From NCBI GenBank assembly GCA_947489705.1, contig CANLEQ010000001.1, positions 248,001 through 312,000 of the forward strand: a stretch of 64,000 nucleotides of DNA, written 5' to 3'. This document shows, piece after piece, positions 49,852 to 60,084 of this stretch. The position numbers and the translations under genes were made by a program. The DNA comes from an uncultured Paracoccaceae bacterium (lineage in GTDB: Bacteria > Pseudomonadota > Alphaproteobacteria > Rhodobacterales > Rhodobacteraceae). The notes under the pieces are model-generated. The model saw only the letters and a list, made by a program, of their open reading frames with translations. It did no database searches and was not told the origin of the DNA. How positions within the stretch are numbered: position 1 is the first letter of the stretch; every line of letters begins with the position of its first letter.

Positions 49852-50977
49852 GCCCGATTTCGGCATTTACCTGCATTGGCCCTTCTGTCAGGCCAAATGC
49901 CCCTATTGCGACTTCAACTCCCACGTCGTCGCCCGCATCGACCACAATGCGTGGCGCGCGGCCTATGCCAAAGAGCTTGCGCGGGTGCGGGCACTGACCG
50001 GCGAACGACGTGTCGCGTCGATCTATTTCGGCGGCGGAACGCCCAGCCTGATGGAGGCCCGCACGGTCGAGATGATCGTGTCGGATATCCAGCGGCACTG
50101 GCAGATCGCCAACGATTGCGAGATCACCCTGGAGGCGAACCCGACCTCGGTCGAGGCCGACAGGTTCCGCGACTACCGCCTTGCCGGTATCAACCGCGTC
50201 TCGATGGGGATCCAGGCCCTCGACGACGCAGATCTGCATCGCCTGGGACGGCTCCATTCGGTCGCCGAGGCGCGCGCAGCCTTCGATATTGCGCGCGAAA
50301 CCTTCGACCGGATCAGTTTCGACCTCATCTATGCGCGGCAGGACCAGTCGCTGCACGATTGGCGGCGGGAGCTTGGCGAGGCGCTCGCCATGGCGGCCGA
50401 TCACCTGTCGCTCTATCAACTGACGATCGAACCCGAGACGGCGTTCGGGGATCGTTATGCGCGCGGCGGGCTTCGCGGGCTGCCATCCGAGGACCTGTCG
50501 GCGGACATGTATGCGGTGACGCAGGAGCTTTGCGATGCGGCGGGAATGCCCGCCTACGAGGTTTCGAACCACGCCCGTGCCGGATCGGCGTCGCGGCACA
50601 ACATGATCTACTGGACGGGCGGGGATTATGCCGGCATCGGCCCCGGAGCGCATGGCCGCTTGACCCTCGGCGGGCGCAGGCATTCCACCGAGACGGCGAC
50701 GTCGCCGCTGCTTTGGTTGCAGGGCGCGCTGAAGGGCGAGACCCCCGAGACGATCGCCGCGCTCGACGATCTGACCGTCCTGGAAGAGCGTCTGATGATG
50801 GGGCTCAGGATCGGTGACGGCGTACCGCTCGACATAGCCACGCAGGTCGACGATTTTACACGAAAGATCAGTGGCTTGGAAGAATATGGCTTGGTCGAGC
50901 GGTCGGCGGGACACCTTCGCGTGACATCGTCCGGGCGCCCGCTTCTGAACGCGATCCTGCGCGAGCTATTCGCCTAG
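49844..50977 (+). CDS. hemW: Radical SAM haem chaperone HemW
   Basis: Radical SAM protein that binds haem and helps load it into haem proteins; earlier called HemN-like coproporphyrinogen oxidase. The 377 residues have HWPFCQAKCPYCDFNSH with the CxxxCxxC cluster motif, YFGGGTPSLM, and GINRVSMGIQALDDADLHRLGR. The start is a TTG at 49844 inside the end of rdgB, which gives the conserved MPEPDFGIYLHWPFC N-terminus. It ends with a four-base overlap into the convergent parB. Confidence 0.94.
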   Translation: MPEPDFGIYLHWPFCQAKCPYCDFNSHVVARIDHNAWRAAYAKELARVRALTGERRVASIYFGGGTPSLMEARTVEMIVSDIQRHWQIANDCEITLEANPTSVEADRFRDYRLAGINRVSMGIQALDDADLHRLGRLHSVAEARAAFDIARETFDRISFDLIYARQDQSLHDWRRELGEALAMAADHLSLYQLTIEPETAFGDRYARGGLRGLPSEDLSADMYAVTQELCDAAGMPAYEVSNHARAGSASRHNMIYWTGGDYAGIGPGAHGRLTLGGRRHSTETATSPLLWLQGALKGETPETIAALDDLTVLEERLMMGLRIGDGVPLDIATQVDDFTRKISGLEEYGLVERSAGHLRVTSSGRPLLNAILRELFA

Positions 50978-51867
50978 TTTTCGGCGCCGCCCGTCAGCAT
51001 GCGACAAAGATTATCCAGTTCTTCCAATGACTTATAGGAAATCGTGATCTTTCCGTCCCCGCGATCGGCGGCATGATCGACGACGACCTTCATCCCCAGA
51101 TTTGCCGCGAGATCCTGTTCGAGGGCGCGGGTATCCGCGTCCTTCTCGGAGCTGGCGGTGGCGCGGCGGCGCGTCGAAGGCTTCGGCCCCTTGGCCAGCG
51201 CCTCGGTCTCGCGCACGGACAGGTTCCGCGCGATGACCTGACGGGCGAGGCCGTCGGGATCGTCGGCGGTGATGAGAGCACGCGCATGCCCCGCGGTGAG
51301 CTTCCCCTCCGCGAGATAGGCCTGCACGCCCGGCGGGAGCGACAGGAGGCGCAGCGTGTTGGCAATGTGCGACCGGCTTTTGCCGAGCGCCTCGGCCATC
51401 TGTTCCTGCGTATGCCCGAAGCGGTCCATCAATTGCCGGTAGCCCGACGCCTCGTCCACCGCGTTGAGATCGCTGCGCTGGATGTTCTCGATGATTGCGA
51501 CCTCGAGCACCTCGGTATCGTCAAGACTGCGGACGATCGCGGGCACTTCGTGGACCTGCGCCATCTGCGCGGCACGCCACCGCCGCTCGCCCGCGACGAT
51601 CTCGAACGCGTCCGGCTTGGTCGGATGCACGCGCAGGATCAGCGGCTGGATGATGCCCTTCGTCGCGATCGAGGCCGCGAGTTCCTCTAGGCTTTCGGCG
51701 ACGAAGCTTTGCCGAGGCTGGTTGGGATTCGGATGGATCCGGTCGATCGCGATGCTGGCTTCGGCGCGGCGCTCTCCGCCCTGCTGCGGCGCCTCCACCT
51801 CGACATCGGCCATGAGTGCCGAGAGGCCGCGGCCAAGCCCCCGGCGTTCCTGCTTTCTGTCGCTCAT
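50974..51867 (-). CDS. parB: Chromosome-partitioning protein ParB
   Basis: CTP-dependent DNA clamp that loads at parS and spreads along the origin region. The 297 residues begin with GLGRGLSALMAD, the ParA-activating N-terminus, then the nuclease-like CTP domain with GERRWRAAQMA, a helix-turn-helix (QEQMAEALGKSRSHIANTL), and a C-terminal dimerisation domain. The ATG at 51867 has GGAG six bases upstream; an ATG at 51879, directly after the parA stop, is the alternative. Two parS-like sites lie 1.4-3.3 kb upstream. Confidence 0.97.
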   Translation of the reverse strand: MSDRKQERRGLGRGLSALMADVEVEAPQQGGERRAEASIAIDRIHPNPNQPRQSFVAESLEELAASIATKGIIQPLILRVHPTKPDAFEIVAGERRWRAAQMAQVHEVPAIVRSLDDTEVLEVAIIENIQRSDLNAVDEASGYRQLMDRFGHTQEQMAEALGKSRSHIANTLRLLSLPPGVQAYLAEGKLTAGHARALITADDPDGLARQVIARNLSVRETEALAKGPKPSTRRRATASSEKDADTRALEQDLAANLGMKVVVDHAADRGDGKITISYKSLEELDNLCRMLTGGAEN

Positions 51868-51879
51868 CTTGCGCTCCAT

Positions 51880-52674
51880 CTATGCGGCCCCCCGTGCTGC
51901 GAGTTCATGTGCCAAGTCGCGATACGCGACGCTTCCCTTCGAGGCGGGATCATAATCCAGAACGGAGCGCGCATAGGACGGCGCCTCGCTCACGCGCACG
52001 TTGCGCGGGATGATCGTCCCGAAGACCAGATCGCCAAGCGTATCCCGGGCGTCCGCAAGAACCTGTTGGGCCAGTCTGTTGCGACCATCGAACATCGTCA
52101 AGACGACGCCTTCGATCCTGAGGCCGGGATTGGCGCTCTGACGCACCTCGCGCATGGTCAGCATCAGCTGCGACAGACCTTCGAGCGCGAAAAATTCGCT
52201 TTGCAGCGGGACGAGGATCGAATGGGCAGCCACCATCGCGTTGATCGTCAACAGGCTCAACGAGGGCGGGCAATCGATCAGGATGAAATCGAGGTCCAGA
52301 TTCTCGACATCGGGCGCAGTAAGCGCGTCCTTCAGCAGGAAGGACCGCTTGCTGTTCGAATACATTTCAATATCGGCGGAGCTGAGATCTGCGGTGGCCG
52401 ACACGATCTTGAGCTTGTCGTATTCCGTCGGCATCAGGACCTCGGAAAGCGACTTTCCCTCCAGCAAGAGGTCATAGGTCGTCAAATCGCGGGTTTCGGG
52501 GTCGATTCCGAGGCCGGTGGAGGCATTTCCCTGAGGATCGAGGTCGACGATCGCCACACCGAACCCGTTCTCCGCCAAAGCCGCGCCGAGGTTGATCGCT
52601 GTCGTGGTCTTTCCGACGCCGCCCTTCTGGTTGACGATCGCAATGGTTTTTGGGCGGCTATGACGGTTCGACAC
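51880..52674 (-). CDS. parA: Chromosome-partitioning ATPase ParA
   Basis: Walker-type ATPase that moves ParB-parS complexes and so segregates the origin. The 264 residues have the deviant Walker A KGGVGKTTT at 17-25, DLDPQGNAS, and LIDCPPSLSLLTINA. The start is GTG at 52674, overlapping the end of rsmG by 17 bases, which suggests coupled translation. It lies in the hemJ-rho-mnmE-mnmG-rsmG-parA-parB run of minus-strand genes next to the proposed origin. Confidence 0.97.
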   Translation of the reverse strand: MSNRHSRPKTIAIVNQKGGVGKTTTAINLGAALAENGFGVAIVDLDPQGNASTGLGIDPETRDLTTYDLLLEGKSLSEVLMPTEYDKLKIVSATADLSSADIEMYSNSKRSFLLKDALTAPDVENLDLDFILIDCPPSLSLLTINAMVAAHSILVPLQSEFFALEGLSQLMLTMREVRQSANPGLRIEGVVLTMFDGRNRLAQQVLADARDTLGDLVFGTIIPRNVRVSEAPSYARSVLDYDPASKGSVAYRDLAHELAARGAA

Positions 52675-53263
52675 GCGCGATATCCCTGATTTTCAGAATG
52701 GCCGAGGTTGCCGATGTTTTACTAGGTATCGCCTCCAAAGAGAACCGCCATTCCCGCCGGGCGAGATCAATTTCGGCGTCGAACCGCTCGCCCTTGGGGA
52801 AAAGACAGGTGGCCCCCTGCCCCGCGTGGCGGAAGGCAAAACCCAAAAGGTCCGTCAGAGGCGCGAGCGCGCGGGCGGAAAGTATATCCGCCCCGATGGG
52901 CTCGACGGTTTCGATCCGCTGGTGAATGACGCGGACATCGAGGCTCAAAAGGCGCGAAACATGCGAAAGGAAGGCGCATTTCCTTGTATCCGACTCGACG
53001 CACACAACCTTGAGCGGCGTTCCCCTCGCGCATATTCCGACCACTATGCCTGGGAGACCCCCGCCGCTTCCCAGATCGCACCATGTGCCGTCGCTTGCGC
53101 CTGACAGTTGAAAAAGCTGCAGAGAATCCGCGATATGCCGGGACATGACATCGTCGGTGGTCCCACGTCCGATCAGATTTATGCGCCGGTTCCATTTGAG
53201 GAGTTCCGACACGTAGAGCTCGATGGCCTGCAATGTTTCATGTGAAACATCGGCGTCGATCAC
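52658..53263 (-). CDS. rsmG: 16S rRNA (guanine-527-N7)-methyltransferase RsmG
   Basis: Methylates G527 of 16S rRNA; loss gives low-level streptomycin resistance in other bacteria. The 201 residues contain [25 protein letters not shown] and the SAM-binding [15 protein letters not shown]. The start is GTG at 53263, overlapping the mnmG TGA. Codons 4-12 (ADVSHETLQ) carry a parS-like 16-mer, so coding and centromere functions overlap. Confidence 0.95.
53234..53249. promoter_or_regulatory. parS: parS-like site inside the start of rsmG
   Basis: TGTTTCATGTGAAACA differs from the parS consensus TGTTTCACGTGAAACA at one central base. It lies next to parAB and within 5.1 kb of the proposed origin. Confidence 0.85.
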
Positions 53264-55140
53264 CCGTCCGTTCCCGTCTTTTTCCGTGATCGCATGGCAA
53301 GAAGGATCGCGTTCAACCCGGCAGGTGTCATTCCCTCTATCTTCGTGGCCTGTGCGAGATTGCCGGGACGATTTCCCCGGAGCTTTTCCTTCAATTCGGA
53401 CGACAATCCATGAACCCGGTCGAGATCCAAGTCATTGGGAATGGGCGTGGCCTCGTCCTTACGGAGGCGTTCCGCCTCCCGGTCCTGTCGATCGAGATAG
53501 TTTGCATAAACGCCTTCCCGCGCAAGCTGGGTGACGATTTCGGGCGCGAGGTCACCGAGCGCCGGTATGGCCACAAGAATGCGCTCGGCCGATACCCCGG
53601 CGATCGAGAGAAGCTCCGCGCCACTCCTATGCGGGCCATCGGCGGCGAGATTGATCCCGGCATTTATGGCATCTTTATTCGAAACGACGGATTCCGAGAG
53701 AATTCTCCGCCCTTCTTCGAGATGGGCAAGTTTGGATTCAAAGGCCTGAGCGCGTCGGCGAGATGCAATCCCGAGCGCGAGCGCGGCCGGCGTAAGGCGT
53801 TGGTCGGCGTTGTCCGCACGAAGTTGAAGACGGAACTCGGCACGGGACGTGAACATCCGGTAAGGCTCCGAGACGCCCCGGGCCGTCAGATCGTCGATCA
53901 TGACGCCGATATAGGCCTCGGTTCGCGAGAGAATGAGGGGCGGATCACCGCGGACAGTAAGAACCGCGTTGATCCCCGCGATGCATCCTTGCGCGGCGGC
54001 CTCTTCGTAACCGGTGGTGCCGTTGATCTGACCAGCGAGCCACAGACCATTAAGCGCCTGAAGCTGAAGCGTGGAATCCAGCGCACGCGGGTCGACATAG
54101 TCATATTCGATCGCGTAGCCGGCCTGTACAATCTCCGCCTGTTCCAATCCTGCGATCGAACGAACATATCTCTCCTGTACGTCCTCGGGCAAGGATGTCG
54201 AGATTCCGTTCGGGTAAACGAGATCGCTTTCCAGCCCTTCCGGCTCGAGAAAGATCTGGTGCGAGTCCTTGTCGGCGAAACGGGCGATCTTATCCTCGAT
54301 CGAGGGGCAATATCGAGGGCCCACCCCGCTGATATTACCGCTGTACATGGCGGACTTATCAAGATTTTCGCGAACGATGTCATGGGTTTGCGCATTCGTA
54401 TGCGTGATTGCGCAGGAGATCTGCCGCGCCTTGGGCGTGTTTGAGAGAAAAGACAGCATAACCGGTTCCGGATCGCCGGGCTGGGTCTCCAGGACGGACC
54501 AGTTGATGGTCCGCCCATCCAACCGGGGCGGCGTTCCGGTCTTGAGCCGCCCCATGGGGAGCGACATGCCGTAAAGCCGATGCGCAAGCGGGACAGAGGG
54601 TGACTCCCCTACCCGTCCGCCCGGTATCTGACGCTCGCCGATATGCATGACACCGTTGAGGAACGTTCCCGTCGTCAAAATCGCAGCATCGCAGGCGAGA
54701 TCCCCTGCCCGTTCCAGACGTAATCCGGCAAGCCGCCCGTTAAGGACAACAAGATCGACCACCTGATCCTCGACGACTTGAAGATTTTCCTGCTCAGAGA
54801 TCGCCTGCTGGACGGCCGCACGGTACAGCTGCCGGTCCATCTGCGCGCGCGGTCCTTGAACCGCCGGACCTTTGCGCCGATTCAGCAGCCGGAACTGAAT
54901 CCCGCCCGCATCGGCGGCTTCGCCCATGATACCACCGAGCGCGTCGACTTCGCGGACAAGATGTCCCTTGCCCAGTCCCCCGATCGCGGGATTGCAGGAC
55001 ATCGCGCCGATCGTATCTCGCCGAAGCGTGACCAAGGTCACATCTGCCCCGGCCCTTGCCGCGGCGGATGCGGCTTCGACGCCGGCATGGCCGCCGCCGA
55101 CCACGGCGATCTTCGGCCGTCGATGTTTCACGTGGAACAT
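53260..55140 (-). CDS. mnmG: tRNA uridine-5-carboxymethylaminomethyl modification enzyme MnmG (GidA)
   Basis: FAD enzyme that, with MnmE, modifies the wobble uridine of several tRNAs. The 626 residues start [20 protein letters not shown] with the FAD-binding [12 protein letters not shown], then [22 protein letters not shown] and [12 protein letters not shown], and end in the C-terminal tRNA-binding part. Its first seven codons contain a parS-like site; the encoded MFHVKH is a known consequence of this overlap in alphaproteobacteria. It lies one base after mnmE. Confidence 0.97.
55124..55139. promoter_or_regulatory. parS: parS-like site inside the start of mnmG
   Basis: TGTTTCACGTGGAACA differs from the consensus TGTTTCACGTGAAACA at one base and overlaps the mnmG start codon. 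Spacing to the first site is about 1.9 kb. Confidence 0.88.
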
Positions 55141-56428: not shown

Positions 56429-57700
<1,272 letters not shown>

Positions 57701-57827
57701 GAAACGTTCCTCGGCCTCGCGCGGGATGGCGCGGTCGGTCATGTCTGTGCTTGGAAGATCTGGCGATCGGACGATCGTTGCCTATCGATTACCCGTCCGG
57801 CCCGACTTTGTCAATCAGGCGCGAGGT

Positions 57828-58280
57828 CTAGAACGGACGCGCGACGACCGAGACCACGATGACGATCAGCAAAAGGGTCGGCACCTCGTTCATCATGCGG
57901 AAGGTCCGGCCCGGAAGCGAGCTTTCGCCCGAGGCCAATGCCTTGCGCTGCTTGCCGCACCACATGTGGAACCAGGTGAGCGCGATCACCGAGACGGCCT
58001 TGGTCCAGGGCCAGATCGCGCTCCAGTCGACGAGGCCGGGCGTGGAGACCAGGATCAGGCCGAAGATCCAGGTGAGGATCATCGCCGGATTCATTATAAG
58101 TTTCAGTAACTTGCGCTCCATCGTCTCGAGCATCTGCGCCTTGTCGGTCCCGATGCGGGCCTGTTCGGCGTGATAGACGAAGAGCCGCGGCAGATAGAAG
58201 AGACCCGCCATCCACGCCACGAACGAGATGATGTGCAGGGATTTGATCCAGGGATAGAGCGCGAGGAGCGTGTCGGTCAT
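57828..58280 (-). CDS. hemJ: Protoporphyrinogen IX oxidase HemJ
   Basis: Membrane haem-biosynthesis enzyme that oxidises protoporphyrinogen IX where HemG/HemY are lacking. The 150 residues have four hydrophobic segments and the family motifs WIKSLHIISFVAWMAGLFYLPRLFVYH (core LHIISFVAWMAGLFYLPR), MERKLLKLIMNPAMI and WFHMWCGKQRK. A conserved His near residue 16 and a Lys near 85 fit proposed haem ligands or active-site residues. It is the first minus-strand gene left of the proposed origin. hemE, which sits here in Caulobacter, is absent. Confidence 0.93.
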   Translation of the reverse strand: MTDTLLALYPWIKSLHIISFVAWMAGLFYLPRLFVYHAEQARIGTDKAQMLETMERKLLKLIMNPAMILTWIFGLILVSTPGLVDWSAIWPWTKAVSVIALTWFHMWCGKQRKALASGESSLPGRTFRMMNEVPTLLLIVIVVSVVARPF

Positions 58281-58657
58281 GATCGAGCTTCTTAAATAGA
58301 TATAGAGAAAAGGAAAGTAGATGAGTGCTGTAGGGCGGTGGATAACGTGGATAAGCGTTCCGTGCCAAGCTGTCCGCAGGCCCCTCGGACGAAGATCGCC
58401 ACCGCTGTTGACGAGCGCGCAAAATTCATCGATCCCTTTCGTTATCAGTAACTTGGTTCGAGCCTGGCCTGTGGATGAACCTGTGGTCTGAGGCGAGGGT
58501 CGCGGTGGACGGCGGATCGGCCGATGGGATATATCCCGGTCGCTGTCCACGGGTATGGAACGGCGCGAATCTGAGAACCGAACGGGGAATATCCACCGAA
58601 GCGCACGGCCTCCTCTTTGACCCCATTCCGCCCGCAGACTTTTCCCGGGAGTTATCC
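58281..58657. other. oriC: Putative chromosomal replication origin
   Basis: A 377-base gene-free region between divergent hemJ and maf. It has an AT-rich stretch at about 58288-58320, then two adjacent DnaA-box-like 9-mers, GGTGGATAA (58337-58345) and CGTGGATAA (58346-58354), each one base from TGTGGATAA. TGTGGATGA (58470-58478) is also one base off. ATATCCACC (58589-58597) and TTATCCATG (58652-58660) are two off on the other strand. A GANTC methylation site is at 58567-58571. The flanking gene order matches the origin region of Caulobacter and relatives, though hemE and the regulator gene usually beside it are missing. Confidence 0.72.
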
Positions 58658-59251
58658 ATGCACCTTATCCTCGCTTCCGGATCGCAGACGCGGGCCGACC
58701 TGCTCAGCCGCGCGGGGTTGAGCTTCGAGATCGAGATCGCGCGGATCGACGAGGACAGCGTCAAGGCGTCGATGGTGGCCGAAGGGGCGCCGCCCCGGGA
58801 TGTGGCCGACGCGCTGGCCGAGGCGAAGGCGCGCAAGGTGTCGCTGCGCCGGCCGGGTGCCATCGTCCTTGGCTGCGACCAGGTGCTGGCGCATCACGGC
58901 GCGATCCTGTCGAAGCCGGAAACACCCCGGGCGGCGGGCGAGCAGCTGAGACGTCTCAGGGACGATCGGCACACGCTTCTCTCGGCAATCGTGGCTTACG
59001 AGGATGGCGAGCCCCTCTGGCGGCATATCGCGACGGTGCGCCTCGCGATGCGGGATCTGAGCGACGTCTATATCGACGAGTACGTCACGCGGAACTGGGA
59101 GAGCATCCGTCACTCCGTCGGGGGCTACAAGCTCGAGGAGGAAGGGATGCGGCTCTTCCGGGCGGTCGAGGGGGATTATTTTGCCACACTGGGGCTTCCG
59201 ATGATCCCGCTCTTGTCCTGGTTGATCGACCGGGGCAATCTGCAGGCATGA
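58658..59251 (+). CDS. maf: Maf/YceF-family nucleoside triphosphate pyrophosphatase
   Basis: Predicted to hydrolyse modified or canonical nucleotides (dTTP/UTP or m7GTP). The 197 residues begin with LILASGSQTRADLLSRAGL, and include the catalytic LGCDQVLAHHG and the YKLEEEGMRLF region. Which Maf subgroup it belongs to is uncertain. The ATG at 58658 overlaps a DnaA-box-like sequence at the right end of the proposed origin. Its TGA overlaps the aroE ATG. Confidence 0.93.
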   Translation: MHLILASGSQTRADLLSRAGLSFEIEIARIDEDSVKASMVAEGAPPRDVADALAEAKARKVSLRRPGAIVLGCDQVLAHHGAILSKPETPRAAGEQLRRLRDDRHTLLSAIVAYEDGEPLWRHIATVRLAMRDLSDVYIDEYVTRNWESIRHSVGGYKLEEEGMRLFRAVEGDYFATLGLPMIPLLSWLIDRGNLQA

Positions 59252-60084
59252 CTCATGAGAAAATCCCGCTGGCCGGGGTGCTGGGCGCCCCGATCGCCCA
59301 TTCCCGGTCCCCGCTGCTTCACAATTTCTGGTTGAAGCGGCACGGGCTTCGCGGGGCCTATGTGCCGCTCCATGTGGAGCAGAGCGACCTGGAGCGCGTG
59401 CTCGCGGCGATGCCGCTGATGGGCTTCGTGGGGTGCAACGTCACCCTGCCCCACAAGGTCTCGGTCCTGAACCTCGCGACCAGCGTGTCGGACCGCGCGG
59501 CGTTGATCGGTGCGGCCAACACGCTGACCTTCCGCGAGGGCGGCGGGATCATCGCCGACAATACCGACGGGTACGGCTTCATCAACAATCTCAGGCAGAA
59601 CGCGCCGGATTGGGCGCCCAGATCGGGGCCGGCCACGCTGTTCGGGGCCGGCGGGGCCGCACGGGCCATCATCACCGCGCTGATCGAGGCCGGCGTGCCG
59701 GAAATCCGGCTGACCAACCGCACGCGGGCCCGGTCCGAGGCCCTGCGCAAGGAGTTCGGCGCCCGTATCACGGTCTACGACTGGGTGCAGGCCGGCAACA
59801 TGTTCGAGGACGCGGCGACGGTCATCAACACCACCTCGCTCGGGATGGAGGGCAAGGCCGAGTTTCGCGTGCCGCTCGACGGGTTGTCGCCCCGGACTCT
59901 GGTGACCGACGTGGTCTATACGCCGCTCGAGACGACGTTGCTGCGCCGGGCGCGCGAGATCGGCTGCCCGACCGTCGACGGGCTGGGCATGCTGCTCCAT
60001 CAGGCGGTGCCGGCCTTCGAGCGGTGGTTCGGCGAGCGGCCGCAGGTCGACGAGGAGACCCGCGAAACCGTCATGGCGGGATGA
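59248..60084 (+). CDS. aroE: Shikimate dehydrogenase (NADP+)
   Basis: Reduces 3-dehydroshikimate to shikimate in aromatic amino acid synthesis. The 278 residues contain GAPIAHSRSPLLHNF, the conserved GCNVTLPHK with catalytic Lys, NTDGYGF and the nucleotide-binding FGAGGAARAI, plus DVVYTPLETTLL. It starts within the maf stop (ATGA) and ends within the coaE start, so maf-aroE-coaE-dnaQ are translationally coupled. Confidence 0.97.
   Translation: MTHEKIPLAGVLGAPIAHSRSPLLHNFWLKRHGLRGAYVPLHVEQSDLERVLAAMPLMGFVGCNVTLPHKVSVLNLATSVSDRAALIGAANTLTFREGGGIIADNTDGYGFINNLRQNAPDWAPRSGPATLFGAGGAARAIITALIEAGVPEIRLTNRTRARSEALRKEFGARITVYDWVQAGNMFEDAATVINTTSLGMEGKAEFRVPLDGLSPRTLVTDVVYTPLETTLLRRAREIGCPTVDGLGMLLHQAVPAFERWFGERPQVDEETRETVMAG

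Follow-up and report, generated by a model that had tools for sequence, protein, structure and literature searches.

The hemJ-maf intergenic gap as the predicted chromosomal origin of an uncultured Paracoccaceae bacterium

The hemJ-maf gap and its DnaA boxes

In the accessible text of two papers (PMC1914354, PMC4468827), the origin of Caulobacter crescentus, Cori, is flanked by hemE and COG1806, and the locus described here raises the question of where replication would start in a genome that carries neither gene at the corresponding place. The window, which is the whole 64-kb stretch of DNA that was analysed, had been given a first-pass annotation pointing to a gene-free gap of 377 bases with flanking genes directed outward, an AT-rich stretch beside two tandem 9-mers one base off the DnaA box, and further boxes of lower match. 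All of these particulars were upheld. The gap occupies 58281-58657 (377 bp, 57% GC; 306,281-306,657 on contig C1) and separates a divergent pair, the minus-strand gene hemJ, starting at 58280, and the plus-strand gene maf, starting at 58658. The features on which the argument draws are given below; boxes were compared with the reference TTATCCACA and, here and throughout, were counted at up to one mismatch unless stated otherwise.

50974-52674, minus strand: partition genes parA (51880-52674) and parB (50974-51879), from profile matches
53234-53249, plus strand: parS-like site TGTTTCATGTGAAACA near the gidB start, a palindromic sequence match
55124-55139, plus strand: parS-like site TGTTTCACGTGGAACA at the gidA start, a palindromic sequence match
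57828-58280, minus strand: hemJ, flank of the candidate origin (TIGR00701, above cut-off)
58281-58657, no strand: candidate chromosomal origin, the hemJ-maf gap (gene ends, skew, synteny, parS, box clustering, conservation)
58287-58324, no strand: AT-rich tract (29% GC), likely DNA-unwinding element (GC content and rarity on the contig)
58317-58336, minus strand: GCCCTAC spacer (58330-58336) beside the proximal box, then a degenerate trio-like stretch (in relatives, CCTAC and the ATC repeats show strand specificity)
58337-58345, minus strand: DnaA box TTATCCACC, one mismatch, proximal of the tandem (sequence match)
58346-58354, minus strand: DnaA box TTATCCACG, one mismatch, distal of the abutting tandem (sequence match)
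58443-58455, plus strand: IHF-like site TATCAGTAACTTG, fitting the consensus WATCARNNNNTTR
58470-58478, minus strand: DnaA box TCATCCACA, one mismatch (sequence match)
58589-58597, plus strand: weak DnaA-like box ATATCCACC, two mismatches (sequence match)
58652-58660, plus strand: weak DnaA-like box TTATCCATG, two mismatches, overlapping the maf start codon (read from the sequence)
58658-59251, plus strand: maf, flank of the candidate origin (NF002690, E 5.5e-57; TIGR00172, E 2.4e-31; both below the curated cut-off)

Beyond hemJ the gene order is rho, trmE, gidA, gidB, parA and parB, and beyond maf it is aroE, coaE and dnaQ, followed by secB on the opposite strand. Going into the gap from hemJ, the AT-rich tract is followed by the GCCCTAC spacer and the abutting boxes TTATCCACC and TTATCCACG, all as read on the minus strand, and, farther out, by a third one-mismatch box, TCATCCACA, and the two-mismatch boxes. 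The gap contains no perfect box, and its three one-mismatch boxes within 377 bp form a putative intergenic DnaA-box cluster of the kind expected at an oriC. The AT-rich tract adjoins the hemJ end of the gap, where it would be the adjacent unwinding element, melting being a prediction from its composition; the lowest-GC 60-bp stretch of the gap (38% GC) is equalled by 0.023% of the 60-bp segments of contig C1. The pattern WATCARNNNNTTR, which we take to be the IHF consensus, is fitted by TATCAGTAACTTG, a putative IHF site such as a Caulobacter-type origin would have, by both match and placement. A search of 57700-59300 for known structured RNAs returned a sole match, to terC, far under the gathering score and within maf.

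Across the whole window, six boxes were counted against 2.67 expected, and 5 of 100 shuffles reached six; this excess is only mildly unusual, and it is the clustering of the boxes, rather than their number, that is exceptional. Three of the 11 boxes on contig C1 (341 kb) fall inside the gap, and no second 400-bp stretch with more than one box was found elsewhere on that contig. The exact tandem TTATCCACNTTATCCAC gave a single exact match in the 4.34-Mb draft genome, and two further locations matched it with two mismatches. Across the draft, exact TTATCCAC copies lying within 60 bp of each other on the same strand were found nowhere else.

Skew, partition sites and homologous gaps

GC skew for the window's genome was computed on contig C1, the draft consisting of 4.34 Mb in 156 contigs. 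Starting at the left end, cumulative skew showed an overall fall as far as about 292 kb, stayed approximately level up to about 306 kb, and rose thereafter. The best two-segment change point was at 304,500, which is about 1.8 kb from the gap, and its approximate support interval (291,700-306,100) stopped 181 bp short of the gap; the lowest cumulative value was at 292,658, which is 13.6 kb from the gap on the rho side. Skew switches from negative to positive within a few kilobases of the gap, as expected of an oriC, and the position of the lowest value counts against the gap. Because the plateau spans the par-gid-rho block, skew alone cannot choose a site inside it.

Three relatives were sampled for skew, and in two of them, G016 and G009, the sampled minimum coincided with the homologous gap or came to within about 5 kb of it, which was not so in G007; around the gap, G016 and G009 were sampled more densely than in other regions. 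In the case of G016, which is a single contig represented by 37 sampled stretches, the sampled minimum was the stretch containing the homologous gap, with a local minimum (3,475,899) about 1.6 kb from that gap. Twenty evenly spaced samples of G009 put the minimum at 3.05 Mb, and with local sequence added the minimum was a 9-kb stretch beside the gap, its centre about 5 kb away. The local minimum of G007 was 13.5 kb from the homologous gap on the rho side, much like that of the window's contig, and the lowest sampled value of the G007 contig was at its open end.

The partition genes lie beyond gidB on the rho side; parB scored above the parB_part cut-off, and parA was assigned from its best models, below their curated cut-offs. 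Only two parS-like 14-mers with up to one mismatch occur in the draft, at C1:301,235 and 303,125, which places them 5.0 and 3.1 kb, respectively, from the gap. Both palindromes sit in the first codons of a gene, that of gidB and that of gidA.

Homologous gaps were assembled from loci L018-L046 and L102-L181, L018 being the window itself. Loci with hemE beside or near hemJ (L043, L047, L147, L162 and L166) and those in which the left neighbour was not found (L116 and L121) were dropped, the left neighbour found at L107, L135 and L180 was aroE, and L040, L045, L178, L180 and any other named gap longer than 450 bp were trimmed to 340-450 bp. The set comprised 103 gaps, or 100 after removal of near-identical ones. 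The 100 non-redundant gaps carried 300 boxes, against a mean of 10.7 and a largest value of 15 in dinucleotide shuffles; all 100 had at least one box, 95 had at least two, and perfect boxes numbered 57 against 0.3 in shuffles. Separate analysis of ten loci retaining hemE or ppsR showed boxes in 8 of their gaps (25 boxes against 0.65 in mononucleotide shuffles), none being found in the gaps of L053 and L057.

The positions of these elements were examined in all 103 gaps. Sites of the form NNATCCAC directed toward hemJ peaked at 61-100 bp (64 sites) and at 201-240 bp (25 sites) from hemJ, those directed toward maf were concentrated at the maf end, and mean GC was about 0.3 at 21-60 bp from hemJ. 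The IHF-like consensus was present in 28 gaps, with 31 sites against 3.3 in mononucleotide shuffles, and 29 of the 31 were located 161-240 bp from hemJ. An alignment of 14 same-genus gaps gave a mean identity of 51% with 8 invariant columns, and this low identity indicates that conservation resides in the motifs and not in the sequence as a whole. We also observed that mean GC falls again, to 0.30-0.40 across the 103 gaps, in a second AT-rich zone at 141-200 bp from hemJ; seemingly weak in the window, this zone could be an alternative unwinding site.

Gene order and the fate of hemE and ppsR

Sixty genomes were searched, the window's own included, and 52 gave a hemJ match. Among the best 30 loci (again with our own), maf was directly across the gap in 26; of the remainder, two had ppsR (COG1806) between the gap and maf and two had hemE beside or near hemJ. 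A set of named-genome loci, the best 80 of 588 confirmed, had maf directly across the gap in 71, the others having aroE (three), no neighbour found (two), hemE without ppsR (two), both genes (one), or ppsR alone (one). The two sets overlap (L153, Rubricella aquisinus).

The complete order rho-hemJ-hemE-gap-ppsR-maf-aroE-coaE-dnaQ was found in the class-level outgroups G044, G047 and G049 and in G017, a member of the same family, and G036 showed this outgroup order as far as coaE, where its stretch ends, with a larger distance between ppsR and maf. Two genomes, G014 and G028, are intermediates in which ppsR is kept and hemE is gone from the locus; in G039, ppsR is at the locus and hemE is on another contig, and the G059 locus has hemE with no ppsR match. 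The ppsR family (PF03618) matched in 14 of the 60 genomes and in 3 of the 36 belonging to the window's family, and no match to ppsR/COG1806 (PF03618) was obtained in the window's draft genome. hemE was found in 53 of the 60, and in the window's genome it lies on contig C2 beside hemC, away from the hemJ-maf locus. The first-pass statement that hemE and the regulator gene are missing here was borne out. The neighbours it gave for the Caulobacter origin, rho-gid-par on one side and maf-aroE-coaE-dnaQ-secB on the other, are also those of the window locus, and the gene order of the outgroups and intermediates agrees with the origin that it inferred.

As a separate observation, L162, L166 and L053 (the G059 locus) retain hemE on the hemJ side with ppsR not found at the locus. 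These hemE-only loci, set beside the ppsR-only loci of G014 and G028, indicate that hemE and ppsR were lost in different orders. In its present place, hemE is divergent from hemC with hemF nearby (C2; L060 7656-11538), all three above NCBIfam cut-offs, and hemE-hemC-hemF is a haem-gene group away from the origin.

The gap occupies the place of a Caulobacter-type origin, between the rho-hemJ side and the maf-aroE side, and at the window locus it is not flanked by hemE and COG1806. The outgroup order, together with the intermediates, shows that the gap corresponds in position to origins of the hemE-COG1806 type, Cori among them. It is very probably an origin of this already known kind that stands without its hemE and ppsR neighbours.

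We consider it highly probable that the hemJ-maf gap is the main chromosomal origin (oriC). The earlier choice of the gap as the best candidate is supported by the skew sign change nearby, by the parS-like sites, by the conservation of boxes across about 100 gaps and by the gene order of the outgroups and intermediates; these, with the anatomy of the gap and its synteny with Caulobacter-type origins, are observed features. From them we infer that DnaA, IHF and ParB bind, and that melting and initiation occur, as follows. DnaA would load on boxes distributed along the gap, the middle of which would carry an IHF-like bend. The abutting tandem (58337-58354) would steer DnaA over the short spacer and into the AT-rich tract (58287-58324), which would melt and take up helicases. 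Replication forks would then depart both ways from the gap, and ParAB, together with the pair of parS-like sites found 3-5 kb from it, would segregate the new origins.

Three other readings have to be weighed against this one. The gap might be a mere shared promoter region of hemJ and maf under DnaA regulation, the origin lying a few kilobases off on the rho-gid-par side. The divergence of hemJ and maf is in keeping with such a region, as is a skew plateau that extends 13.6 kb rho-ward with a similar offset in G007; however, the gap is the only 400-bp stretch of contig C1 with more than one box, and boxes persist at the gap both where hemJ and maf are the neighbours and where hemE or ppsR is present (8 of 10 loci). 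A simple scan of 58000-59000, which is weak evidence in this bacterial group, also returned no sigma-70-like promoters or terminators. We regard a promoter region with a displaced origin as very improbable. Even less credence is given to the gap being a former origin or a DnaA-titrating cluster with the active site elsewhere in the draft, although the draft is in 156 contigs, the full scan for clusters of boxes with up to one mismatch covered C1, and the box copies in the gap are imperfect. The search for same-strand exact TTATCCAC pairs within 60 bp was genome-wide and found no other pair, and the skew, the parS-like sites and the box conservation all favour the gap.

In many bacteria the origin lies by dnaA. 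Here dnaA is on the same contig (C1:7016-7501), and one perfect box occurs within C1:3791-4190, but this box is single, skew changes sign near 304 kb after an overall fall of the cumulative curve up to about 292 kb, and the parS-like sites are 294-296 kb distant. An origin beside dnaA, with one box and no skew switch, was rejected and has hardly any chance of being correct. As an origin, the hemJ-maf gap is ordinary but well supported; its interest lies in the way its neighbourhood has been dismantled and in the trio-like element seen in its relatives.

Known origins and a trio-like element

The window gap was compared with Cori by description, the Cori flanks being taken from the accessible account in PMC1914354. 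The two are alike in their corresponding position, DnaA boxes, AT-rich tract and single IHF-like site, and the gap measures 377 bp against the 404 bp given for Cori. They differ in that the window locus lacks hemE and COG1806 and in box type, which is TTATCCAC in the window and, as far as the source describes it, a weaker G-box type in Cori. Cori is also reported, in the text available, with five CtrA sites, whereas the window gap has none, counting only full sites (TTAA-N7-TTAA); this does not separate the lineages cleanly, as full sites were found in none of 10 outgroup or intermediate gaps. They were present in 10 of the 103 homologous gaps. CtrA control of the gap is not evident from full sites. 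The idea that CtrA sites had been shed in the window's lineage was dropped because the 10 outgroup and intermediate gaps do not carry full sites either, and because PMC8116508, in its accessible portion, has CtrA influencing replication in some Rhodobacterales. The same paper reports that loss of the CtrA genes is not lethal in this order.

Origins of Rhodobacteraceae have been predicted by Ori-Finder or DoriC in 101 genomes (PMC6699656), and oriC1 of R. sphaeroides (PMC6315104) and the origins of D. shibae (PMC6473078) were predicted in the same way, according to the parts of these papers that were available. They come from the same family and were placed by GC skew, TTATCCACA-type boxes and proximity to parAB; they may correspond to the present locus, their flanks being unnamed in the available text. 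No publication naming hemJ and maf as origin flanks was found in the literature searched, which had subscription journals outside its scope. The dnaA gene of Rhodobacterales tends to be near the origin (PMC8116508, accessible portion), whereas that of the window's genome is about 299 kb from the gap. With the hemJ-maf gap, a large bacterial order whose published origins, in the texts available, rested on software and skew gains an origin that is precise and testable. It shows how an origin neighbourhood can be dismantled one gene at a time while the origin persists, and the recurring layout of box positions, IHF-like site and ATC repeats can serve as a template for locating origins in draft Rhodobacterales genomes.

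The trio-like element was compared with the basal unwinding system (BUS), which comprises DnaA boxes, a spacer and DnaA-trios in B. subtilis and other bacteria; the available part of PMC8287927 gives the trio consensus as 3'-GAT-5' and the pattern as NAN at least three times, with a spacer of up to 16 bp (PMC8287927). The likeness lies in the tandem boxes and short spacer, followed in many relatives by a strand-specific triplet repeat and an AT-rich tract. Within the last 130 bp, 62 of the 103 gaps had ATCATC directed toward hemJ and 2 had it on the opposite strand, and three tandem ATC units were found toward hemJ in 37 of the 103 against 0 on the other strand. The triplets of the relatives read 3'-TAG-5', in contrast to the published trio. 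Two further differences are that the window copy lacks three contiguous trios, the stretch beside its box having at most two, and that the ATCATC repeat is rare in loci that keep hemE (1 of 9 gaps). A strict BUS was rejected for the window copy, in which no run of three or more NAN trios was found within 16 bp of the box.

We give about an even chance to the following account of the Rhodobacterales: the origin stayed fixed while its flanks hemE and ppsR were lost singly and in varying orders, and hemE-less lineages carry a strand-directed series of box, short G/C CTAC spacer, (ATC)n, pyrimidine tract and AT, with 3'-TAG-5' trios that are rare where hemE is kept. The ATC-repeat layout also offers a way to test trio-type unwinding in this order. 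A minor observation concerns the boxes themselves: TAATCCACA was a common variant (26 sites in the 103 gaps) and was the hemJ-adjacent box in many of them, and it is possibly a group-specific DnaA box.
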